From positions 124,001 to 188,000 of the forward strand of contig JAUXSE010000056.1 in assembly GCA_030681515.1 (NCBI GenBank): a stretch of 64,000 nucleotides of DNA, written 5' to 3'. Below the pieces are notes generated by a model that did no database searches, had not been told where the DNA came from, and saw only the letters and a list, made by a program, of their open reading frames with translations. The translations under genes were made by a program, and so were the position numbers. Shown piece after piece: positions 16,755 to 38,306 of the stretch. Source of the stretch: Geothrix sp. (GTDB lineage Bacteria; Acidobacteriota; Holophagae; Holophagales; Holophagaceae). Position 1 is the stretch's first letter; each line of letters begins with the position of its first letter.

Positions 16755-16955
16755 TCATGCGGATTCCGGGAGGGGGACCACCCGTTCGCGGGCGATCTCG
16801 GCGGAATAGGACAGGGCGGCCTGGATATCCTCGGGCTTGAGGCTGGGGTAGCTGGTGACGATGCCCGCAGCGGTCAAGCCCGCCGCGAGGTTATCGAGCA
16901 CGATGGCCACGGCCAAAGGTGGCCATGACGCGAAGATGTTGCTTAATTGCTCCAT
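16755..16955 (-). pseudogene. DUF433-type protein remnant
   Basis: The last 50 residues (VLDNLAAGLTAAGIVTSYPS then EDIQAALSYSAEIARERVVP) match the C-terminal half of DUF433 proteins, small antitoxin-like helix-turn-helix factors. The usual N-terminal part, with a GKPCIRGxRI-type motif, is absent. What precedes (FASWPPLAVAIVL) looks frameshifted or replaced. The frame can be read from an ATG at 16955. Its usual PIN-like partner gene is not present. It is divergent from the Fic gene, sharing its promoter region. Confidence 0.5.
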
Positions 16956-16981
16956 TGAATTTCCAATAATCAATGTTTCCG

Positions 16982-17010
16982 TGGAGCGATTACGCAATAG
17001 AATCGCTCCA
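16982..17010. promoter_or_regulatory. Perfect 10-bp inverted repeat before the Fic gene
   Basis: TGGAGCGATT (16982-16991) is mirrored by AATCGCTCCA (17001-17010) around a nine-base spacer, ending 15 bases before the Fic ATG. It is long and symmetric enough to be an operator. The Fic protein's own C-terminal winged-helix-like region could be the ligand; that is inference. Confidence 0.65.
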
Positions 17011-17025
17011 TGGAAGGGAATTGAC

Positions 17026-18201
17026 ATGGTTCAAACGACAGAAGGACGGACCTATATCTGGGAGCTGAAGGATTGGCCCAGGTTCACCTGGGATGCCGGT
17101 CGGCTGTCTGAAGCACTGGCCTCTGCCAGGCGATCCCAAGGCGAGCTCTTGGGGATGGTGAAAGCGATAGACCAGGTGGCCTCCAACGAGGCTGCCGTGG
17201 CCGCCATGGTCCAAGAGGTTGTGAGCAACAGCGCCATCGAGGGTGTGGCCCTCAACATGGAATCGGTCCGCGCCTCCATGCTGCTTCGGCTTGGGGTCGT
17301 GACAGGCCTGACCCAGGTAGCAGGGGTTCAGCACGTGGATCCCATTGTCGGCGTCCTGACTGAAGCAACACAGGGGTACCGTGACCCCCTGACCACTGAA
17401 CGGATCTTTGGGTGGCATCGAGCCCTATTTCCAAAGGGAATTCAGGAAGGGATTCGCGTGTTCCCGGCAGGGATCCTGCGCGGGGAGGGACCCATGGTGG
17501 TCGCCAGTCCTGGGCGGCACATCGGACTACCTCCCACGATCCATTTCGAGGCCCCTGGCCGGGAAGTGCTGGAGGGAGAGGTGGAGGCCTTCCTCGCCTG
17601 GTTCAACGCTCCGCCCGCGGGCCTCGATGGCTTGTTCCGAACTGCACTTGCCCACCTTTGGTTCATCACCGTCCATCCGCTGGCTGATGGAAACGGCCGT
17701 ATCGCCCGGACCATCACCGATCTGGCTCTGTCCCAGGATGAACAGTTACCCCTCAGGTACTACTCCTTGTCCGTTCAGATCATGCGGAACAAGCAGAACT
17801 ATTACGATGCCTTGGAGAATGCCCAACGAGGCGGGATGGACATCACAGACTGGCTGGCGTGGTTCCTTTCCCAGGTGTTGCAGGCAACCCGGCATGGTGT
17901 TCGGGAAGTGGCCATGGTGATGGCTCGGAGCCGATTCTGGGCCATGGCCCGGAAATTCAGCCTCAACCCCCGGCAGGAGATGGTTTTGAAGGCCATCCTC
18001 TCGCCGATGAGCCGGGAAGACGCTGTAAGCAATGCCTACTACTGCAAACTCGCCGACACCAACCGGACCACCGCATCGCGAGACCTGGCCGAGTTGGTGG
18101 GCATGGACCTTCTGCGTCCCTATGGGGCCGGTCGAAGCGCCTCCTACCGGGTTGACCTTGATCGGTTCACGCCGGACTGGGCTCAACTCAGCACCAGCTA
18201 A
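17026..18201 (+). CDS. Fic family protein (DUF4172-type N-terminus), putative AMP transferase
   Basis: 391 residues from ATG 17026, preceded by AAGGGAA. The N-terminus (YIWELKDWPRFTWDAGRLSE) is the DUF4172 domain found with Fic. The Fic core carries the catalytic motif HPLADGNGR at residues 217-225 with the invariant His. An inhibitory-helix-like motif NSAIEG lies at residues 68-73; the first position is Asn where Ser or Thr is usual. The C-terminal region (VSNAYYCKLADTNRTTASRD) resembles a winged helix-turn-helix. Fic enzymes transfer AMP from ATP to protein hydroxyls. No separate antitoxin gene is seen, consistent with an internal inhibitory helix. Confidence 0.9.
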   Translation: MVQTTEGRTYIWELKDWPRFTWDAGRLSEALASARRSQGELLGMVKAIDQVASNEAAVAAMVQEVVSNSAIEGVALNMESVRASMLLRLGVVTGLTQVAGVQHVDPIVGVLTEATQGYRDPLTTERIFGWHRALFPKGIQEGIRVFPAGILRGEGPMVVASPGRHIGLPPTIHFEAPGREVLEGEVEAFLAWFNAPPAGLDGLFRTALAHLWFITVHPLADGNGRIARTITDLALSQDEQLPLRYYSLSVQIMRNKQNYYDALENAQRGGMDITDWLAWFLSQVLQATRHGVREVAMVMARSRFWAMARKFSLNPRQEMVLKAILSPMSREDAVSNAYYCKLADTNRTTASRDLAELVGMDLLRPYGAGRSASYRVDLDRFTPDWAQLSTS

Positions 18202-18532: not shown

Positions 18533-18565
18533 ATAAAAAAAGGGGGAGGGATCGCTCCCTCCCCC
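18533..18565 (-). terminator. Intrinsic terminator of the multicopper oxidase gene
   Basis: 10-bp perfect stem (GGGGGAGGGA 18542-18551 with 18556-18565) and loop TCGC. On the minus strand it is followed by seven T's (18541-18534). It lies 75 bases past the oxidase stop. Confidence 0.88.
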
Positions 18566-18640
18566 CATTAAATGGTCTTTCGTCGGATGGCGGGCAGGAC
18601 CTGGATCCCCCGGGCGGATCGCTCCGCCCGGGGGGCCGTG

Positions 18641-21600
18641 TCACAGTCCGTTGAACCGCAATCCGCTCACATTGGTCACCAGGTTGGCGTAGCTGAAGGA
18701 AGCCGGTGTCCAGGTGGCGTAGACGCCCGAGGCACTGAGGGATCCCGTCCAGCCCGTGGGCACCCGGAAGGTGAAGTTCCCATTGGCATCCGTCAGAACG
18801 CTTCCACCCGTGCTGAGGGTGATGGTCACGCCCGGGATGCTAGTGCCGTTGCCATTGACCTGGGCCCGGGCGCGGCCCGAGATGGTCTGGACGGTGATGA
18901 AGTCCTGGATCATGGCGCTGGCCAGAGGCACGGCGACGGTGACGTTCGTGGGGTTGAACAGGAACCCGGCCCGGGTGGGCGTGATGGTGCCCGTCCAGCC
19001 GGCCCGGACATAGAGGTTATAGGCGCCGGTGGCATCGGTGAGGATTGCGCCTCCTCCGTTGTTGAGGGCCACGCGGACACCGGCCAGACCCGCACCGTTG
19101 GTGGTGATGGTGCCGGAGAGCAGGAAGGTCTGGCCCGCGGTGAAGTTCTGGCCCGCGGGGCTGGCAGTCACATTGGTCAGGTTGCGGGCCGCGGGCGAGA
19201 ACACCCAGCCCACGAGCGCGGGCGTGAGCGAACCGCTCCAGCCGGAGGGCACGTAGTGGGTGTAGAGGCCGCTGGCATCCGAGACCGCAGTCCCGCCACC
19301 GTTGGAGAAGGTGACGGTCACACCCGCCAGGGGCAGGGGCGGCACGGCGTTGGTGTTGATGGCGCCGTAGACACGAACGGCGATGACGGCGGTGTAGTTC
19401 TGCGCGGCCTGGTTGGTGGTGATGGCCGCGTAGCTCGTGGAGAACGGGGTGATGAAGTAGCCGGGCCTGCTGGGCGTGACTGTGCCGGTGTAGGGCACAG
19501 GTACGGACAGGCTGTAGTTGCCGGAGGCGTCGGTGAGCACACTCTGACCGGTGCTGAAGGTCAGCGTGACGCCAGAGAGTCCGATGGCATTGAGGGTGAC
19601 CTGACCCGAGATCGTGGCGGCCTGGGTCGCGGCGAAGTTCTGGGCGGTCTGGTCAACCGAGACTGCCGCGTAGGCGCGGGAGGCCGGAATGAAGGTGAAG
19701 CCGGCCAGCGAGGCGGTGATGCTGCCGGTCCAGGGATTGGACAGAGCCGCGATGCTGTAGTTGCCACTGGCATCCGTGACGGTGGTCTGACCCGTGCTGG
19801 CGGTCAGGGTGACGCCGGCGAGGCCGGTGGCGCCCTGGGTGACGGTTCCGGAGAAAGTCAGCGCAGGCAGGCTGGCCACGAAATCCTGGCCCACCTGATT
19901 GAGGGTCAGGGTGGTGTAGGTGCGGGTGCCAGGCGCGAAGACATAACCCGCCAGGGTCGGCGTGATGGTGCCGGACCAGTTGGTGGGCACGGCGGCGGTG
20001 TAGGTGCCTGTGGCATCCGAAATGAAGGTTCCGCCACCGTTGCTGAAGGTGAGGGTGACGCCGGGCAGGTACTGGCGGGGCACGGAGTCAATGTAGGTCC
20101 GGCCCGAGATGACTGGCGTGTTGATGATGCTGTAGCTGATGGTCGTGGTCGCGTCGGGAACCGCAGCGGCCGGGAGGGTGGTGACGACGTCTGCCGTGAC
20201 AGCGTAGGTGCCGCCCGCGAGGGACATGGACGCGGGCAGGGTGAACTTCGCGTTCGTGCTGTAGGCCTGGAGGACGATGCCGTCCACGGAGAACTGGTAC
20301 TGGTAGCTGGTGGAGCCGATGCCCGTCGCCGTGAAGATGATGGTCTTGGTGGAGGGCTGCGGGCTGGGCAGGTTGGGCAGAAGCTGGACGCCGGTGGCGG
20401 GGCCAGGGGTGATGGTATAGGGGATGGTGGCGCTGACGATGGCGCTGGCAGCGCTGGTGCGCGCGTCCACGGTGACGGTGTAGACACCGACGGCCTGGGT
20501 GGCGGGCATCAGATAGGTGGCCGCGGTGCTGAAATCCTGCACCAGGGTGCCGTTGACGGTGAAGCGGTACTGGAAGGTGGCGGGGCCGGTGGCCGAGCCC
20601 AGGGCGGTGAAGGTGACGGCGGTGCCCTTGGTGACCGAGGTCAGCGGCAGGGCATCGAGGGTCACACCGGTGGGTGCGGTGACGGCACCGGGCACCACGG
20701 TCACGGGGCCGGCGGCGAGCGCCGAGTCACCCTTCTGGTTGTAGGCGATGACGCGGTAGTCGTAGCTGGTGCCAGACACCGTGGTGAAATCGGTGAAGTT
20801 GTTCTGGTCAGGAACGGTGGCGCCGAGCTTGGTGAAGACGGCTTCACCGTTGGGGCCGGGATTGCGCTCGACGCGGAAGCCGGTTTCATTGATGGAGCCA
20901 TCGGTCCAGGCCAGGTCCACACGGGTGGGCCCGTTGACGGTGGCGGCCAGGGCCGAGGCTTCCGTGGGCACGATGGTGGCCACGTTCAGGACCACGGGGC
21001 GCATGAAGTCATTTTCTTCGTGGCCCAGGATGTGGCAGTGCCACACGTATTCCCAGCCGTAGTCGGTGACGGCGTTGGGCACCATGAGCGGGTTCCCGAA
21101 GTCACCCATGTTCGGGCGGATGACCAGGTCGGTGATCTGGATCAGGGCGTTGGTGTCCTTGGTGGGATCTATGACGCGCTGGCTGTTGGGGAGAACGAAG
21201 GGGAGCTGGGGCGAGATGGGCCGGAGGGCGACGACGATGTCCTCCAGGGGGTTCATCTTGACGGTTTCCTTCCAACCGAGTTCATTGGCCTCGGGGAAGC
21301 GCACGGCGCCATCCCAGCCCACGCGGTTGACGATCTGGACATCAAAGAGGTGGAAGTGGACGGGGTGGGTATCCACGCCGTTGTGGGTGATCTTCCAGAG
21401 CTGGGTGGTGCCATCGGTCAGGACTTCCGTGGCGGGTTCGGCGTAGCCGATGGGGATGGTGGTCTGGTTGTTGAAGTTGGTGAACGGCAGCTCGATGGCG
21501 AGGGTGCTGTTCATGCGGCCGTAGTTGGTTTCGAAAAGCTCATGGATGGCCTTGGCCTGCAGCGGCATGACCGTGGGCACGCCGTTCTCGGTCTTGACGT

Positions 21601-23854
21601 AGCTCAGTTCGTTGCCTTCGATGGTGGCGTAGGTATCGGTCGCCACGGTGGTGTTCATGGCCGAGTTGTAGAAGGTCTGCGGCACGATGGGAATGTGCTG
21701 GGTGGCCGCGAAGGCGCCATGGGACGTCGAGGTGGACGTGAAAGCCGCGTTCAGGGCTACGAGGTCGAAGGGGGCCGCGGGGGTGCCCACGATCTCGACC
21801 TGCATGAGGGTGCGGGTGTTGGGGCCGTAGCCTTCCAGGGTGCTCGGCGCGCCGCCGGTGGCGGTCTGGTCTGGGGCACCGGTGAAGTAGTCGAAGCGGA
21901 TGTCGAAGGCCGGGATGGGCGCCAGCATGTCGCTGTAGAGGATGAGCTTGGAACCACTGGGGACGGAGGAGAAGTCCACGATGACATCGGCCCGCTCGGC
22001 GGCCATCAGGAAGAGGCCGTGGTTGAGGACGCTCAGCACGACGATGTCGCGGCGGTTCATGTTGTAGGTGGTGGCCTGGGAGGGGATCACCACGGGGGCG
22101 GGCAGGAAGCCGCTTTCGTTGCCGATCTGGATGATGTCGGGTCCCTTGGTGCGGAAGTCCACCACGCCGCCATCGCGGCCATCGGTGGGCCAGAGGGGGA
22201 CGCCGTTCTCATCCAGGGGCCCCTGGATGGCTTCGGCCGGGGTGGCCGGGATCATCTTGACTTCGGTGGGATGCAGCGGATCGGCGTAGTAGAAACCCAT
22301 GCCAAAGGGCCGGTCGTTGGACGCATTCAGGATGCGGAAACGGTAGGCCTTGGGTTCGAGGGTCAGCTTGGGATAGGCCGTGCCGTTGATCACGGGGGTG
22401 TCGAGGAAGGACTCGATCACCAGGGAGGGGTTGGGGGTGCCGGGGTAGTCAGGATCGCCAGGGTTCGCACCGGGCTTGGGGCCGTGGGCGGTGGGGATGC
22501 TGTTGGGGGCGGTATCGGACACGGGCAGCGGGGGCCAGAACCACGGGCCGTAGTCCCACCGTCCCATGGCGTTGGCGCCGGAGGGATCGCCGGGATTCTG
22601 GTTGGGCATGTAGACATGGGGGTACCACAGATCGCCGTAGCCGCCCCAGTTATTGATGTCCCAGGTGGGATCCCCGGCCGCCAGGTCGCTGGGGCCAGGA
22701 ATGAAGGTCTTGTCCTGGATGATGAGGGGGATGCCGTAGTTGTAGACGCCCCCGCCGTTGTTGGGCAGGATGCCGTCCGTGATGAGCTTTCTCTCCACGG
22801 GATCCACGAGCAGGTACCCGGCAGCCTCGCCCGCGTAGACGTTCAGGCGCGTGAGGCCAAAGGTATGGTCGTGGTAGAACATGAGCCGGCTGCTCTGCTG
22901 GTTCGTGTAGAAGTAGGTGGCGATGCCATCATCCGCCGTGGGATTGGGGAACAGGTTCCCGGGGCCCACCATGTCCGGCACGTTGGCGAAGGAAGCGCCC
23001 TTCTTGTTGGGGGTGGGATCGCCCGCGGGGGTGATCCACTGGTGCGGGGTGCCGTCACTGATCCAGGGGTTGAGACCGCCGTGGAGGTGCAGTTCGGCGC
23101 GGTTCTGGGTGAAGGTGGAGCCGCCCGGCCCGGTGCCGGAGCCCATGAGGCTGGTGTCCACGGGCAGCAGGAGGTTGCCGGCGGCGCCGGTGGGGAGCTG
23201 GTTGCGGAAGGTGACGCGCACGGGCCGATCCCGCTCGGCGATGATGAGGGGCCCGAGGTAGTGGGCCCGGCCGTCCCCCTGGTTGTCCTTGTAGCCCCGG
23301 AGGCGGGTGGCAGGCAGGTCCGAGTGCAGCTGCTGGGTGTAATCCACCAGGCTGATGTCGTAGTAGTCGGAACCCGGGAAGAGGGTGGTATTGGGCACGG
23401 CCACGGGGATGAAGTTGCCAAGGTTGTTGGCATTCGCCGCGCCCAGGCCGGGGAGCGTATCCACGAACTTGCGGATGAGGGGCGTGTTCGTCCAGTTCGG
23501 GATGACGCCACCCATGTAGTCAGGGGTGCCCAGGGGATCCATGATCCCGGGAGGGGCGGCGATTCCGGGGGTGGGTACGAAAGCCTTGGCGGACAGGGGC
23601 TTGCCCTTGGCCGCGGCCATGGCGGCCTTGGCGGCTTCGCGCCTGGGCCTGGCGCGCTCGGCAGCGGCCAGGCGGGCCTGGGCCAGGGCGCGACGCCGGA
23701 TGGCCCGCTCGACGATGGCGGCCTGATCGGCATGGGCGGTGGGGCCGATGGTTTTCGGCGTCGGTTCCTGCCCTGCGGGCCGTTCGGCGTAGAGGCCGAT
23801 TCCCACCAGCAAGGCCGCGGCGAGCGCCAGCAGACGGGTTAAGGGCTTCAACAT
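18641..23854 (-). CDS. Large exported multicopper oxidase with fibronectin III and carboxypeptidase-regulatory-like repeats (OmpB-like)
   Basis: 1737 residues from ATG 23854 (GAGGTG upstream). A signal peptide (LLALAAALLVGIGLYA) is followed by a basic Ala/Arg-rich stretch. All four copper-binding motifs are present: HLHGG near 253, FYHDHTFG near 328, HPVHFHLF near 835 and WHCHILGHEENDFM near 938, the last with type 1 ligands. The 500-residue gap between the second and third motifs makes the oxidase core much longer than laccases or CueO and resembles Geobacter OmpB. A fibronectin III domain follows (about 960-1060), then Ig-like regions. From about 1248 to the end come six repeats of the ISGxVxxNxxGLAGVTLTxSxG type. 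It probably oxidises a metal or organic donor at or outside the outer membrane. Last gene of the SCO locus. Confidence 0.93.
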   Translation of the reverse strand: MLKPLTRLLALAAALLVGIGLYAERPAGQEPTPKTIGPTAHADQAAIVERAIRRRALAQARLAAAERARPRREAAKAAMAAAKGKPLSAKAFVPTPGIAAPPGIMDPLGTPDYMGGVIPNWTNTPLIRKFVDTLPGLGAANANNLGNFIPVAVPNTTLFPGSDYYDISLVDYTQQLHSDLPATRLRGYKDNQGDGRAHYLGPLIIAERDRPVRVTFRNQLPTGAAGNLLLPVDTSLMGSGTGPGGSTFTQNRAELHLHGGLNPWISDGTPHQWITPAGDPTPNKKGASFANVPDMVGPGNLFPNPTADDGIATYFYTNQQSSRLMFYHDHTFGLTRLNVYAGEAAGYLLVDPVERKLITDGILPNNGGGVYNYGIPLIIQDKTFIPGPSDLAAGDPTWDINNWGGYGDLWYPHVYMPNQNPGDPSGANAMGRWDYGPWFWPPLPVSDTAPNSIPTAHGPKPGANPGDPDYPGTPNPSLVIESFLDTPVINGTAYPKLTLEPKAYRFRILNASNDRPFGMGFYYADPLHPTEVKMIPATPAEAIQGPLDENGVPLWPTDGRDGGVVDFRTKGPDIIQIGNESGFLPAPVVIPSQATTYNMNRRDIVVLSVLNHGLFLMAAERADVIVDFSSVPSGSKLILYSDMLAPIPAFDIRFDYFTGAPDQTATGGAPSTLEGYGPNTRTLMQVEIVGTPAAPFDLVALNAAFTSTSTSHGAFAATQHIPIVPQTFYNSAMNTTVATDTYATIEGNELSYVKTENGVPTVMPLQAKAIHELFETNYGRMNSTLAIELPFTNFNNQTTIPIGYAEPATEVLTDGTTQLWKITHNGVDTHPVHFHLFDVQIVNRVGWDGAVRFPEANELGWKETVKMNPLEDIVVALRPISPQLPFVLPNSQRVIDPTKDTNALIQITDLVIRPNMGDFGNPLMVPNAVTDYGWEYVWHCHILGHEENDFMRPVVLNVATIVPTEASALAATVNGPTRVDLAWTDGSINETGFRVERNPGPNGEAVFTKLGATVPDQNNFTDFTTVSGTSYDYRVIAYNQKGDSALAAGPVTVVPGAVTAPTGVTLDALPLTSVTKGTAVTFTALGSATGPATFQYRFTVNGTLVQDFSTAATYLMPATQAVGVYTVTVDARTSAASAIVSATIPYTITPGPATGVQLLPNLPSPQPSTKTIIFTATGIGSTSYQYQFSVDGIVLQAYSTNAKFTLPASMSLAGGTYAVTADVVTTLPAAAVPDATTTISYSIINTPVISGRTYIDSVPRQYLPGVTLTFSNGGGTFISDATGTYTAAVPTNWSGTITPTLAGYVFAPGTRTYTTLTLNQVGQDFVASLPALTFSGTVTQGATGLAGVTLTASTGQTTVTDASGNYSIAALSNPWTGSITASLAGFTFIPASRAYAAVSVDQTAQNFAATQAATISGQVTLNAIGLSGVTLTFSTGQSVLTDASGNYSLSVPVPYTGTVTPSRPGYFITPFSTSYAAITTNQAAQNYTAVIAVRVYGAINTNAVPPLPLAGVTVTFSNGGGTAVSDASGLYTHYVPSGWSGSLTPALVGWVFSPAARNLTNVTASPAGQNFTAGQTFLLSGTITTNGAGLAGVRVALNNGGGAILTDATGAYNLYVRAGWTGTITPTRAGFLFNPTNVTVAVPLASAMIQDFITVQTISGRARAQVNGNGTSIPGVTITLSTGGSVLTDANGNFTFRVPTGWTGSLSASGVYATWTPASFSYANLVTNVSGLRFNGL

Positions 23855-24220
23855 GGGGCACCTCACTGTGGAAAACTTCGGATGGGGTATCAATGGCCGG
23901 GGGATGGGAAGGCGAGAGACCCGTGGGATCCACGTGATCCCGGGCCTTGACTGCGACAATTTGTCCTAATTCCCCCAAGAGTCCTCTGATCCGGGGACTC
24001 GGGGTATGGGGAGTTCCCCCCATTGGATGGGTGGGAAGGCAGTAATTTTGCCGTCGTGCCTACCGGCCTGCCTCACCGCGGGGCGCGAATCCGCCCCGCG
24101 GGCGGCGGGAAGCCCCCGGATAGACCCGGGCCACCCGGGGCCGCCCCCTGCGCCTTTGGGGGCGGCGGACGGTTCAGCGCGCTGGGGCTGGTCTTCGTGG
24201 TCCCTGGGGCGGTGCCTGGA
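23855..24220. other. Intergenic region between oxidase and kelch genes with hairpins and an 11-bp palindrome
   Basis: No gene is seen. Two GC-rich hairpins follow the kelch gene on the minus strand: 24140-24148 with 24158-24166 (9 bp) and 24076-24085 with 24092-24101 (10 bp). Neither has a T run, so they may attenuate rather than end transcription. GACAATTTGTC (23955-23965) is a perfect odd palindrome about 100 bases before the oxidase start and a candidate operator. No clear -35/-10 pair was found. Confidence 0.5.
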
Positions 24221-25837
24221 TCAGTCGTAGATCTCGGCGCTGGACAGGAAGCCCGCCCCGGCGCCACCGGTGATGAGTGCTTTCCCGTCCTGGAGGACCG
24301 TGGCGGTATGCGCCTGGCGCCCGGTGGTCATGCTCCCCGTGGCGGTGAAGAGACCGGTGGCGGGGTCGTACAGCTCCGCCGAGGAGAGCAGGAGGGCGGG
24401 CGACCCCGAGCCGATCCCGCCCGCCACCAGCACCATCCCCGTGGGGAGGAGCGTGGCCGCGTGCAGACGGACCCGGATGTCCAGGAGGTTTCCAGTGGCG
24501 GCGAAGGTGCCGGTGGCCGGGTCGTACAGCTCGACGCTGGTGGTGGCCGCGCCGCCCACCACCAGCACCCGGCCATCGGGCAGGACCGTGGCGGAATGGT
24601 AGGACCGGGGAACCGCCATCGTTCCGGTGGCGGTGAAGGTCTCCGTGGCGGGATCGTAGCGTTCGGCGGTGGCCAGTGCGGTGGTTTCGAAGCCCCCGGC
24701 GATGAGGATCTGGCCGTCGCCCAGCAGCGTGGCGGTATGGACGGCCCGGGCCGTGAGGGGCGCATGGGCCGTGGCCGTGAAGACGCCCGTGGCCGGATCG
24801 TACAGTTCGGCGCTGGCGAGGTAGGTGCTCAGGGTGCGCCCGGCGACGAACAGGACCTGGCCGTCCGGCAGCAGGGTGGCGCTGTGGTCGGACCTCGCCG
24901 CGAGGAGGCTCCCGGTGGCCGTGAAGCTCCCCGTGGCGGGATCATAGATCTCGGCGCTGGCAAGGACGGTGCTGTAGCTGGTGCCACCGGCGATGAGCAC
25001 CTGGCCGCTGGGCAGCAGGGTGGCGCTGTGGAATTCCCGCGGGGTGGCGAGACTGCCGGTGGGGCTGAAGGTCCCCGCGACGGGATCGTACAACTCCGCG
25101 GTGCCGAGAGGGGTCCCATTGAAGCCCCCCGCGATCAGCACCTTGCCACTGGGCAGCAGGGTGGCCGTGTGGGAGGCCCGGGCGGCGGCGAGGCTGCCGG
25201 TGGCGGTGAAGAGGCCAGGGCCCGCGGTGCTGAGCACGATGAGGGTCGCGCTGGCGCTGGTGACGCTGCCACCGAAGGCATCGGAGACCTGCACGCTGAA
25301 GGCCGTGCCGCTGTCGGCCAGCGCCGCAGTGGGCGTGGTGTAGTCGGCGGCCAGGGCCCCGGGGATGGTGAGGCCATCCTGCAGCCACTGGTAGCTGAGG
25401 GTCCCCAGGCCGGCGGCAATGACCTTGAAGGTGGCCGTCTGGCCCACGAGGATGGACTGGTTCGCGGGCTGAGCGGTGATGGTGATGGCCGGCGCATTCA
25501 CGGTGAGGCTGAGGGTGGCCGTGGTGCTGCCCGTGCTGTTGGTCCCGGTCACGGTGTAGCTGGCGGCGGCGGTGACGGTAGTGGGGATGCCTGAGATCAC
25601 GCCCGAGGCGGGATCCAGGCCGAGCCCGGCGGGCAGCGCGGGGCTCACGGCGTAGGACGCGATGGCACCGCCGCTGTGGGTGGGGCTGTTCGCGGGGATG
25701 GCAATGCCCACGATGTAGACAGCGGGGTTGGCGGGGTAGGCGAGGGCGCTGGGGGCTTCGACGACCTCCTTGCAGCTGAGCCCCAGCAGCGCCAGACCGA
25801 GGAACATTGCCGACCATCCACGACCAAAAACACGCAT
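24221..25837 (-). CDS. Exported kelch-repeat protein with Ig-like domains
   Basis: 538 residues from ATG 25837 (GAGGTGG upstream). An N-terminal signal with a possible lipoprotein cysteine ([11 protein letters not shown]) is followed by a putative-Ig (He_PIG) domain ([19 protein letters not shown]) and an Ig-like domain ([17 protein letters not shown]). Seven kelch units follow, each of the form RxxHxATLLPxGxVLIAGG...[15 protein letters not shown]. They should fold as one seven-bladed propeller resembling galactose-oxidase-type propellers. No catalytic residues are evident. The last unit stops right after AEIYD. It lies 60 bases after the cytochrome gene and so is probably co-transcribed with it. 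Confidence 0.9.
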
Positions 25838-25897
25838 GACCACCTCAACCCGGAAAGAGAGTACTGGGGAGAAATGATAAAGCATATGGGCTGCTTC

Positions 25898-27616
25898 TCA
25901 GTGGACCACCCACTCGCTCTTGCGGACGAGTTTCGGTTCGGGGCCGGGGCTGAGCTGCATGAGATAGCAGCCCTTGGAGGCGTAGCGCTGGCCGGGGCCG
26001 AAGCTGAGCCGGAGAAAGTCCGGCAGGATGTGGTCGCGCTGCATGCCGAGGCGATCGAGCAGATTGTCCCGGTAGACATTGCGGTCCATCTCGATGAGCC
26101 CGGCCTGGAAGAGCTGGAGCAGGGCATAGGTCCGGGTGGAGATCCGCGTTTCGGGCTTGTGCCTGGAGAGCCCCGCGAGCAGCGAGTTCGCGTATCTGGA
26201 CACGGCCGGTTCGTCTTTGGGATCCCGGTACGGATAGGTGATCCAGGTGAAGGCGCGGGCCTTCTCGGGCAGGGCGTAGAGCTTCGTGCCAAGTTGGCGG
26301 GAGGACATGATGACGACCCCTGGGCGGTCCACCTCATCCGCCAGACCGTCGAGGGCGTCAAAGGTTCCGGCGGCGGTCCACAGCAGGACCGCGGTGGGTT
26401 TCTCCTGCTGGAGCATGGTGCGCAGGGAGGCGAGGCTCACCGTCTCCCCCTGCCCCAGACGGATCTCCTTCACCGCGCCCGCGCCCAGTTCCTGCCAGGT
26501 TTCGCGGAATCCCGCGGACAGGTCGCGTCCTTCGGGGCCGTCCTGGATGATCTGGAGGACGCGGCTGGCGGGAGCGGGATCCTCCAGGCCCCGGAGGTAG
26601 CGGGCGGCGGCCTGCCCTTCCTGGAAATAGCCCTTGGAGAAGTACTGGGTGTACCAGTCGGTGTCGGAGATCACGGGGAAGTCGGTGATGGGGAAGAGGC
26701 AGGGCAGCCGGCGGCTTTCGCAGAAGGTGTGGATGGGCTTCCAGTCGCCGTAGGAGATCCCGCCGAGCAGGGCGAAGACCGGTTCCTTGGCCAGGTGGGC
26801 CCCGAGCTGGGACGCCCAGGTATCGGACGGGCCCTTCAGGCGCCAGACCGAGAGGGCCAGTTTGCGGTAGGCGCCCCGCATCTCCTGCCCGCCAATGCTC
26901 ATGTACATGCGGGTGCCGAAGACGCTGGCATGGGCGTTGTGCCGGGCCACGAAGTTGTTCATGGGCACGAGCATGGCTTCCTGGTCCTCGGCGCTGACCT
27001 CATCCGTGATGACCGTGGCGACCCGGAGGGTGGTGGTATCCACCCCGGGGGATAGCTGGGCCGAAAGCGACCACAGGTAGTGGACCAGGATGGCCATGTC
27101 CGGATCCTTCAGATCGTAGCGGGGCATGACGGGATTCAGTTCGCGCCCTCCGGGATCGAGGCCGGTGCGGAGGACGTGGGCCAGGGACGCATCGGTGTAC
27201 GGCGGTCGCGCCGCGGGGGTCTGGACCCGGAGGCTCTTGCGCTCCTCGGGCGAGAGGTTCGGGTACTTCCGGTAGCGGGTCCGCCCAAGCTTGGTGCCAT
27301 TGGTCGGCAGGGTGACCACGCCGCCTTCGAAGGTCCCGAGGCCGCTCCGCACATGGCAGCTGACGCAGGTGAAGGCCGTGCCGGCCACGGGCACATCCCC
27401 GCTCACCACGGACTGCATGGGCTCGCCGGAAGGGAGGATGCCTTCGCGGTACATGCGCTCGCCCAGGGCCAGGGCCTTGTCGGCTGGCAGACCGGCCACG
27501 GTCTTGGGTTTGGCCTTCAAGGCCTTCTCCGGGGGAGCGGCAGCCAGGGACAGGGCCAGGAGGCACGCGATCGCGGCACCGCGTGCGAGGCCGGAAGTAA
27601 ACCCGGGCCCGCTCAC
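25898..27616 (-). CDS. Monohaem cytochrome c fused to a periplasmic (type 1) ligand-binding protein
   Basis: 572 residues from GTG 27616, which overlaps the SCO gene stop by four bases (GTGA). A signal sequence (GAAIACLLALSLAAAPP) is followed by a class I cytochrome c domain. It has CVSCH for haem attachment and a likely axial Met in NPVMPRYDLKDPDMA. From about residue 175 the protein continues as a Leu/Ile/Val-binding-type domain (VATVITDEVSAEDQEAML, ALLGGISYGDWKP, YFSKGYFQEGQAAARYL). No permease or ATPase genes accompany it, so it is more likely a redox or sensing component than a transporter part. The fusion is uncommon. Confidence 0.9.
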   Translation of the reverse strand: MSGPGFTSGLARGAAIACLLALSLAAAPPEKALKAKPKTVAGLPADKALALGERMYREGILPSGEPMQSVVSGDVPVAGTAFTCVSCHVRSGLGTFEGGVVTLPTNGTKLGRTRYRKYPNLSPEERKSLRVQTPAARPPYTDASLAHVLRTGLDPGGRELNPVMPRYDLKDPDMAILVHYLWSLSAQLSPGVDTTTLRVATVITDEVSAEDQEAMLVPMNNFVARHNAHASVFGTRMYMSIGGQEMRGAYRKLALSVWRLKGPSDTWASQLGAHLAKEPVFALLGGISYGDWKPIHTFCESRRLPCLFPITDFPVISDTDWYTQYFSKGYFQEGQAAARYLRGLEDPAPASRVLQIIQDGPEGRDLSAGFRETWQELGAGAVKEIRLGQGETVSLASLRTMLQQEKPTAVLLWTAAGTFDALDGLADEVDRPGVVIMSSRQLGTKLYALPEKARAFTWITYPYRDPKDEPAVSRYANSLLAGLSRHKPETRISTRTYALLQLFQAGLIEMDRNVYRDNLLDRLGMQRDHILPDFLRLSFGPGQRYASKGCYLMQLSPGPEPKLVRKSEWVVH

Positions 27617-28191
27617 AGGATCCCCACCTTGCGGCACTCGGCCACGAATTCGGAGGAGCTCATGAGACCGAAAATCCTGATCCATTTCCCGGTCTTCGGA
27701 TCCCGGATGAGCGTCAGGGGGTAGTGGGACATCTTGTTGGGGATGTAGGCGTTGAAGGCGCGCATGGCCTTGTCTATGTCCTCGCGCTGGCCGGTGAAGA
27801 AATCCCATCCGGGCCTGGCCCGGTACCGCTTGAGGTAGTCGCGCATCACCTTGGGGGTATCGTTTTCGGGATCAATGGAGATGGAGACCAGGTGGACCTT
27901 CGGGGCGCCGGGAGGCAGCTTCGCCTGGAGGTTGGCGTAGCCCGCGGACAGGACGGGGCAGATGGTGGTGCAGGTGCCGAAGATGAAATCCACGATGACG
28001 GGCTCGCCGGATTCAAGCATGGCCTTGAGCTTCACCTTGGCCCCGTCCTGGTTCACCAGCGTCACGTCGGGCACCGTGTAGCTTTCCACGGTCCGCTTGA
28101 TGGGTGGGGGGGCCTGGGCGAGCAGTCCGCCGGGCGTGGCTGCCAAAAGGCCAAGGACCAGTCCGGCGAGGTGCCATGTGCGTGGGTTCAT
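27613..28191 (-). CDS. SCO1/SenC-family copper chaperone or thiol oxidoreductase
   Basis: 192 residues with a signal peptide (LAGLVLGLLAATPGGLLAQA). The thioredoxin-like fold has the Cu-binding pair FGTCTTICPVLS (CxxxC) and the distal His in SHYPLTLIRDP. SCO proteins deliver copper to oxidases. Here it is first in a putative operon ending in a multicopper oxidase, so copper loading of that enzyme is the natural hypothesis. The promoter must lie in the AT-rich divergent region 28.2-28.37 kb. Confidence 0.93.
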   Translation of the reverse strand: MNPRTWHLAGLVLGLLAATPGGLLAQAPPPIKRTVESYTVPDVTLVNQDGAKVKLKAMLESGEPVIVDFIFGTCTTICPVLSAGYANLQAKLPPGAPKVHLVSISIDPENDTPKVMRDYLKRYRARPGWDFFTGQREDIDKAMRAFNAYIPNKMSHYPLTLIRDPKTGKWIRIFGLMSSSEFVAECRKVGIL

Positions 28192-28365: not shown

Positions 28366-29574
28366 ATGAATTCAAACTATACTCCAACCATGCACCCTCG
28401 TCGGCTCTCCCCCCAACTGCTGGATCGTGCCTCCCATTACCCCGTTGTCACCCTCACGGGGCCGCGCCAATCGGGAAAGACGACCCTCTGCCGGGCGCTG
28501 TTTCCCGAACTGCCCTACAGGTCCCTGGAGTCGCTGGATCATCGCAGGTTCGCACAGGAAGACCCCCGGGGCTTTCTGGAGGAGATCCCCGAAGGGGCGA
28601 TCCTGGATGAGATCCAGCGGGTGCCCGATCTGGTGTCCTATCTTCAGGAAGAAGTGGACCGCGATCCGCGACCGGGCCGATTCATCCTGACTGGAAGTGA
28701 GAACCTCTCCGTCAGCGCCACCGTTTCTCAATCCCTAGCCGGCAGATCGGCCCTGCTCACCCTGCTGCCGCTGAGCCTGGATGAACGCCAAGCCTTTCCA
28801 AACGCGCCCACGGATCTATGGACCAGCCTCCTGGCCGGTGGATACCCGCGCATTCCTGACCAGGGAATTCAACCTGGGGTGTGGCTGGGCGACTACGCCC
28901 GTACCTATGTGGAACGGGATGTCCGTCAGCTTCTACAGGTCTCGAATCTACGCATGTTCGAGACTTTCCTCTCCCTGGTGGCAGGCCGGACGGGGCAGGA
29001 ACTGAACGCCTCGAGCCTGAGCGGCGACGTCGGAGTATCGGTGAACACCATCCGTGCGTGGCTTTCCGTTCTTGAAGCCAGCTACCTCATCGTGCTCCTG
29101 CCGGCCTGGCATCCCAATCACCGGAAGCAGTCCATCAAAGCGCCCAAACTGCATTTCCTGGATTCAGGCCTCGCATGCCATCTCCTGGGCATCCAGACGG
29201 TTCAGCAATTGGCCATGCACCCTTTGCGGGGGGCGTTGTTTGAATCCTGGATGGTTTCAGAGGTAATGAAAGCCCGTCTTCATGCAGGACGTCCGGCGCG
29301 GATGTTTCATTACCGCGAAGCCAGAGGACCCGAGGTGGATCTCCTGGTCCAATCCGAGGCCGGATGGATCCTTGCCGAGGCGAAGTCGGGGGCGAGCGTG
29401 GACATGAGTTTCTTCCAGCCCATGGAGGCTCTGGCGAGCCGACTCTCCGAAGACAGCCCTGTGGAGCGGCGCCTGATCTACGGAGGGAGGGACTCCTACC
29501 GGCGCCAGCAGGTGGCGGTGACTGGATGGGCCCAAATCCAGGACCGGGCCTGGCAAGGCTTGAACCGCTGGTGA
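28366..29574 (+). CDS. AAA-family ATPase with DUF4143 domain
   Basis: 402 residues. Walker A GPRQSGKTT and Walker B GAILDEIQ belong to the AAA_14 domain, with the sensor-like FILTGSEN. The C-terminal DUF4143 half has LLAGGYPRI, YVERDVRQLL and the nuclease-like ARGPEVDLLV...WILAEAKS pattern. These common bacterial proteins are of uncertain role, often on mobile or defence-associated DNA. Two ATG starts are possible, 28366 and 28390; neither has a good Shine-Dalgarno. It is divergent from the SCO operon and convergent with rpoC. Confidence 0.9.
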   Translation: MNSNYTPTMHPRRLSPQLLDRASHYPVVTLTGPRQSGKTTLCRALFPELPYRSLESLDHRRFAQEDPRGFLEEIPEGAILDEIQRVPDLVSYLQEEVDRDPRPGRFILTGSENLSVSATVSQSLAGRSALLTLLPLSLDERQAFPNAPTDLWTSLLAGGYPRIPDQGIQPGVWLGDYARTYVERDVRQLLQVSNLRMFETFLSLVAGRTGQELNASSLSGDVGVSVNTIRAWLSVLEASYLIVLLPAWHPNHRKQSIKAPKLHFLDSGLACHLLGIQTVQQLAMHPLRGALFESWMVSEVMKARLHAGRPARMFHYREARGPEVDLLVQSEAGWILAEAKSGASVDMSFFQPMEALASRLSEDSPVERRLIYGGRDSYRRQQVAVTGWAQIQDRAWQGLNRW

Positions 29575-29588
29575 TATACGGCTGAATG

Positions 29589-29615
29589 AAAAACGGCCCG
29601 CCGAAGCGGGCCGTT
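29589..29615 (-). terminator. Intrinsic terminator of rpoC (possibly bidirectional)
   Basis: 10-bp perfect stem (29592-29601 with 29606-29615) and a CGAA tetraloop. On the minus strand it is followed by a T-rich stretch. It lies 18 bases past the rpoC stop and also about 15 bases past the convergent ATPase gene. Confidence 0.88.
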
Positions 29616-29633
29616 CGGGGTGCAGCGGACGGA

Positions 29634-33872
<4,239 letters not shown>

Positions 33873-33914
33873 GGGGACCTCTCAGGATTCGTCGGAAACG
33901 GATGCGGAAGGAGA

Positions 33915-38306
<4,392 letters not shown>

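Follow-up and report, generated by a model that had tools for sequence, protein, structure and literature searches.

A putative Holophagaceae variant of the OmpB/MofA-MofC-SCO cluster in Geothrix and a candidate control system for its multicopper oxidase

Four consecutive genes of a Geothrix sp. genome encode a SCO chaperone, a cytochrome c fused to a periplasmic binding protein (PBP), a kelch lipoprotein and a giant multicopper oxidase (MCO). On the basis of the composition of the cluster, and of the published description of similar clusters, they are assigned here to a Holophagaceae variant of the OmpB/MofA-MofC-SCO cluster. The best explanation, in which we have moderate confidence, is that the cluster provides a secreted MCO together with its maturation and redox partners. 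By homology with the related systems, a metal redox role of the module is likely.

The mode of action of OmpB- and MofA-type multicopper proteins in bacterial iron and manganese cycling is a standing question in the literature. The Geothrix module is a compact and variable version of these systems, and related species with or without it offer natural comparisons. No literature linking Geothrix with a cluster of the OmpB/MofA type was found, nor any published description of the control site or the sensor-regulator pair reported below. The control element and the candidate regulator are new parts of this work, and those that deserve specialist attention.

The DNA analysed (here called the window) is a stretch of 64,000 nucleotides, positions 124001-188000 of contig C30 of a 3.2 Mb genome that is 99.5% complete. 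Its relevant features are collected in Table 1.

Table 1 Features of the Geothrix cluster, numbered from the first position of the window.
Feature	Position	Strand	Description	Evidence
Putative intrinsic terminator after the MCO gene	18541..18566	-	11-pair stem and T run	Stem and position fit; the number of terminator-like sites in the region is at chance level
MCO	18641..23854	-	Secreted, 1,737 aa; ATG start most likely	CotA is the best PDB sequence match (7.7e-39); CarboxypepD_reg (2.1e-13)
Conserved control element	24006..24032	-	27 bp	Alignment of the kelch-MCO gap from 13 species; scoring matrix
Kelch lipoprotein	24221..25837	-	538 aa; lipobox C22, Ig-like N-terminal part, seven-unit propeller	Pfam Kelch_4 (1.7e-42), He_PIG (6.8e-11)
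MofC-like fusion	25898..27616	-	572 aa, GTG start; monohaem cytochrome c (about 45-190) and type-1 periplasmic binding domain (193-572)	Peripla_BP_6 (2.6e-12)
SCO1/SenC-type copper chaperone	27613..28191	-	192 aa	Pfam SCO1-SenC (7.3e-21); PDB sequence match to B. subtilis Sco1 (1.5e-19)

Gene organisation and conservation

The gene calls place the SCO, fusion, kelch and MCO genes in this order in a single minus-strand run, which confirms the arrangement described earlier from the letters of the DNA (the sequence-only reading). The overlap of 4 bp between the SCO and fusion genes and the 60 bp between the fusion and kelch genes are likewise as reported there: the GTG start of the fusion lies within the SCO stop, GTGA being common to both genes. 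The spacing between the kelch and MCO genes is much longer, at 366 bp. All four proteins have N-termini that resemble export signals, as judged by eye, and the Pfam domains found across the cluster are SCO1-SenC, Peripla_BP_6, Kelch, Cu-oxidase_2 and CarboxypepD_reg.

The sequence-only reading had made its case depend on homologues of the four genes occurring together elsewhere, and in relatives they were found both to co-occur and to be collinear. The order SCO-fusion-kelch-MCO is present in most relatives that bear the module (for example at L062, L065, L066, L068-L070, L072, L074 and L075). Because the same order recurs in so many relatives, it stands above chance. In a survey of the order, covering 77 genomes, the fusion is present in 24 and a strong match to the giant MCO in 24, with both in 22.

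The kelch gene, one of the four in the sequence-only reading, is not a core part of the system. It is a trait of the Holophagaceae clusters, with one similar case outside the family (L115), in which the kelch gene lies upstream of the fusion.

Among named genome records, relatives of the fusion occur in Geobacter, other Desulfuromonadales, Desulfobulbaceae, Nitrospirae and metagenome-assembled Chromatiaceae, usually with an adjacent SCO gene and often with a large MCO gene next. SCO-fusion-MCO recurs in Desulfuromonadales, often with an FKBP gene in front, and loci of the Geobacteraceae type have, in order, a kinase, a sigma-54 regulator, a receiver, an FKBP isomerase, SCO, the fusion and the MCO. 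Over the core, the window MCO shares about 45-55% identity with the MCOs of Geobacter-type loci.

Protein domains and structure predictions

The MCO is the largest protein of the cluster. Its open frame starts further upstream than the ATG adopted here, with a TTG at 23959. The core (about residues 126-960) is followed by an fn3-like segment (about 967-1040), and then by Ig-like and CarboxypepD_reg-like repeats that continue to the C-terminus. The four copper motifs are present in order, as HLHGG at residue 256, HDH at 328, HPVHFH at 830 and HCHILGHEENDF at 939. The model of the core has a pLDDT of 75, and its top fold match is the bilirubin oxidase of B. pumilus (7z5p; Z 29.6, rmsd 2.5, 484 residues aligned), with CotA entries tied (Z 29.5, rmsd 2.3, 470 aligned). 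The protein thus shares its core fold and four copper motifs with CotA laccase and bilirubin oxidase, but differs from both in the axial residue discussed below, in long insertions, in an N-terminal extension, and in about 780 C-terminal residues of fn3/Ig-like character.

An fn3 domain and EXXE iron-binding motifs have been reported for OmpB. The fn3 match in the Geothrix MCO is weak (E 1e-4, 22.9 bits against a Pfam cut-off of 25), and the model has a beta-rich segment at this position. EXXE occurs three times against 0.8 expected from shuffles, the motif being too short to weigh.

The axial residue of the type-1 copper is Phe950, within HCHILGHEENDF, and not the axial Met of CotA-type enzymes. 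Phe is found here in 30 of the 32 Holophagaceae family sequences counted (named and unnamed loci together, with some genomes counted twice), whereas Met is found in 17 of 20 sequences elsewhere, and in most of the Desulfuromonadales relatives fetched. In a Thermus laccase an axial Phe raised the potential by about 60 mV, and by analogy the type-1 copper of the Geothrix MCO, with its hydrophobic axial Phe, probably has a high potential. The same genome encodes a smaller second MCO of 752 residues (C30:240388-242646, in L093), in which the axial residue is Met.

The fusion contains one CxxCH motif (C84/C87/H88). C84, C87, H88 and a downstream M164 are invariant in 78 relatives, which fits a haem c with His/Met ligation. 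Pfam cytochrome models gave no match to the fusion at 0.001, and the haem domain is predicted here from the CxxCH motif, the invariant Met and the AlphaFold model (pLDDT 92, with the 78 relatives used). A PDB sequence search with the fusion profile gave no match at 0.01, and so structure was used instead. Residues 193-572 match type-1 binding proteins, the best chain being 3h5l (Z 26.4, rmsd 4.3, 348 aligned), with many matches tied. The closest folds are those of proteins that bind amino acids and aromatic acids, including binders of 4-hydroxybenzoate.

The SCO protein has by sequence the residues of a copper chaperone, namely CxxxC at C74/C78 and the distal H156. Two COX1-family oxidases are encoded in the genome, and another SCO gene lies directly beside a COX1-type oxidase gene (C30:97514-99600). 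This different SCO speaks against the cluster SCO as the cytochrome-oxidase chaperone and leaves it free for the MCO. The cluster SCO therefore probably serves the MCO, as had been suggested when it was first described as the loader of the oxidase.

The lipobox of the kelch protein is LLGLSC, and its C22 is the only Cys in the protein. A copper radical enzyme of the galactose/glyoxal oxidase type was considered and rejected, since there is no Cys for the Cys-Tyr cross-link, and the GlxA model falls far below the cut-off.

Comparison with known systems

The link to the Geobacter OmpB cluster made in the sequence-only reading was right in kind, since ompB/mofA clusters that hold MofC-like cytochrome c and PBP proteins and SCO have been described (He et al., PMC5566968). 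The Geothrix cluster contains an MCO with four copper motifs and a putative export signal judged by eye, an adjoining MofC-like cytochrome c/PBP protein, and a SCO1/SenC gene. It resembles the ompB cluster of Geobacter sulfurreducens (GSU1394, GSU1397, GSU1398; PMC5566968) in having a large secreted MCO, a MofC-like haem protein and SCO, perhaps also in the weakly matched fn3-like segment of the MCO, and differs from it in the kelch lipoprotein that is encoded between the fusion and the MCO. OmpB is cited in He et al. as being needed for Fe(III) oxide reduction, and in G. soli an OmpB homologue is higher on ferrihydrite.

The mofABC genes of Leptothrix discophora and the mof operon of Rubrivivax A210 are similar in combining an MCO with an FKBP/Mip-type isomerase and a cytochrome c protein; in Rubrivivax A210, mofA, mofB, mofC and a copper metallochaperone are in one predicted operon. 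An FKBP isomerase (MofB) is typical of mof operons, but is absent from the G. sulfurreducens cluster and is not defining for the ompB type. There is none in the four-gene cluster of Geothrix, which differs from the mof operons in having its FKBP gene outside the cluster, at the regulator locus on contig C17, and in the added kelch lipoprotein.

A further comparison is provided by Slit_1812-1818 of Sideroxydans lithotrophicus ES-1, which are higher on magnetite and comprise cytochrome, SCO and tandem MCO or cupredoxin genes. Tandem MCOs are also present in one relative of the Geothrix studied here (G038). No kelch gene is mentioned in the description of Slit_1812-1818.

Control of the oxidase gene

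An alignment of the kelch-MCO gap from 13 species has a consensus palindrome, ATGGGKRGAACTMCCCAT, about 150 bp before the MCO start. In the window the palindromic core is ATGGGGGGAACTCCCCAT, at 24006-24023 and 152 bp upstream of the start codon. The 27-bp form of the element has a single match in the window and none in shuffles. Allowing up to one mismatch, the palindrome is present in 19 of the 24 fusion-bearing genomes of the order and in none of the other 53, while a reversed control gave zero across the order. The genes with a site in front are giant MCOs, tandem MCO copies in G038, some smaller MCOs (in G021, G038 and G043), and the SCO gene in G033.

The sequence-only reading has to be modified in the light of this element. 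The four genes are indeed collinear in relatives, but one transcription unit for all of them is unlikely, since the MCO has a conserved control element of its own. The gap of 366 bp, and the conserved palindrome inside it, make it improbable that the four genes form a simple operon with the MCO as its fourth gene.

Other placements of the palindrome were less convincing. A site before the small MCO in the same genome (C30:242786, two mismatches, about 140 bp upstream) is weak when taken alone: at two mismatches three sites matched in this genome, compared with one when the reversed control was used, and by the scoring matrix 5 of 200 shuffles did equally well. Clear versions are found before its relatives in G021, G038 and G043. 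As a general feature upstream of SCO the palindrome was rejected, being convincing in just two relatives (L062 and L066) and not found there in the Geothrix genome itself. Known RNA elements, riboswitches included, were also rejected for the kelch-MCO gap, because Rfam gave only tRNAs across the window. No sigma-70 promoter could be placed for the MCO. In G038, giant MCO genes form a tandem array (L074, at G038:C142:14000-33000, and G038:C142:5077-8298), in which the palindrome stands before several copies.

The sequence TACCCAT in the consensus element fits the NarL/NarP heptamer TACYYMT, although the copy in the window deviates at the first positions of the heptamer. The genome encodes a NarL-type response regulator with a receiver and a GerE domain (C17:8179-8838), and the same locus encodes a PAS-HisKA_3 membrane kinase, the FKBP isomerase, NosL and an FtsX-type ABC permease. 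No copy of the palindrome turned up near the regulator in this genome; in G011 one is flanked by a NarL-type regulator with its kinase on one side and by a receiver-NosL-FtsX-ABC cluster on the other.

Relatives of the regulator are present in 26 genomes, which include all 24 that have a giant MCO, and in four genomes (G014, G023, G033 and G070) the regulator adjoins the MCO. On an rpoC tree, the module must have been gained or lost seven times or more along supported branches, and its presence is scattered within one genus. The regulator tracks the MCO in six of six independent contrasts (p 0.031); the wider co-occurrence is in part shared ancestry, kinship being corrected only in these contrasts, which are few. 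From the sequence data, regulator and kinase are likely to be a dedicated pair for the MCO module. Their locus further suggests that a MofB counterpart and a copper-handling transporter belong to the MCO regulon. The pair resembles NarX-NarL two-component systems in its HisKA_3 kinase and its receiver and GerE regulator, and differs from them in that the proposed target is an MCO regulon. A different two-component system, consisting of a histidine kinase, a sigma-54-activating regulator and a receiver protein, precedes the cluster in loci of the Geobacteraceae type (L124:4434-9216, L140 and L144).

With the control element and the candidate sensor-regulator pair in hand, the inducing signal becomes testable. 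Should the regulator respond to copper, oxygen or metal oxides, this would be enough to discriminate between the roles considered below.

Proposed function and alternatives

We hypothesise that the membrane kinase and the NarL-type regulator, whose genes are observed on C17, would sense a redox or copper signal. The regulator would then bind the palindrome upstream of the MCO, as suggested by linkage, by co-occurrence and by one relative in which the promoter of the regulator itself has the palindrome. The SCO and the cytochrome-PBP protein, whose genes overlap, would act in the periplasm. Here SCO would load copper, and the haem protein would exchange electrons with SCO, copper or the MCO; a ligand bound in the cleft of the PBP may gate this exchange. 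The exported MCO would be located at the cell surface by means of its repeat tail, and possibly of the kelch lipoprotein. By homology, Fe(II), Mn(II) or reduced organic compounds may supply electrons to its type-1 copper; alternatively, this copper may take part in metal-oxide respiration as OmpB does.

The SCO and fusion genes also admit another, more tentative explanation. Together with the remote NosL/FtsX they might serve to acquire copper and load it into extracellular cuproenzymes, so that the haem protein would reduce copper or SCO rather than carry electrons to minerals, and the PBP would bind a copper ligand. SCO and fusion are the tightest pair in the cluster: their overlapping genes are kept across phyla, and in the named set (L095-L174) 38 of 55 same-strand pairs allow an overlap of 4 bp. 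Such pairs also occur with other classes of MCO, or with no MCO nearby. At L121, L154, L155, L157, L160, L167 and L171 they lie without a giant MCO beside genes for FtsX-type permeases, some of them with an ABC ATPase, a membrane protein or NosL, and in several Holophagaceae NosL-FtsX adjoins the regulator. Since it is found both with other MCOs and beside NosL/FtsX, the pair may serve to supply copper and not to transfer electrons. Against this, no set of copper ligands could be recognised in the PBP domain, whose nearest structural matches are binders of amino acids and aromatic acids.

The pairs beside FtsX are a second context for the MofC family and may show its core role. We would suggest, as a rather speculative extension, that a dedicated NarL-type two-component system, a palindromic operator, NosL/FtsX, SCO, the cytochrome-PBP protein and surface MCOs might constitute one regulon, through which Acidobacteriota would build and supply their extracellular copper enzymes. 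The widespread MofC protein would then be a redox or ligand-sensing step in copper loading, and not an electron wire.

It is improbable that the MCO is a laccase-like enzyme that uses oxygen to oxidise phenolics or humic matter and has nothing to do with metals. Such a function would agree with the likeness of its core to CotA and bilirubin oxidase in both sequence and fold, with an axial Phe as in high-potential fungal laccases, with the two COX1-family oxidases of the genome, and with the similarity of the PBP fold to 4-hydroxybenzoate binders. Against it stand the links to Fe and Mn of those relatives, judged by gene cluster, that are best characterised, and the frequency of relatives among Desulfuromonadales and Desulfobulbaceae. 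A CueO-like, copper-induced detoxification is very unlikely: an MCO with a copper chaperone and NosL, and a two-component regulator that would fit copper sensing, are compatible with it, but no CueO assignment lay above the cut-off, the module is scattered within one genus, and the large repeat tail and kelch lipoprotein are unlike periplasmic CueO.

Neighbouring genes

Between rpoC and the SCO gene, the window contains a gene for a DUF4143/AAA_14 ATPase (28366-29574). In seven genomes (G011, G018, G021, G034, G038, G040 and G045) SCO lies within about 300 bp after rpoC, and the ATPase gene was not found at this junction; it therefore looks like an insertion in the lineage of the Geothrix window. 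A gene for a Fic/DOC family protein with DUF4172 and Fic domains (16855-18201) is convergent with the MCO gene and is an ordinary neighbour. Very long open frames run on the plus strand antisense to the MCO (18572-23842) and to rpoC (29586-36332); they are a consequence of the high G+C and are not genes.
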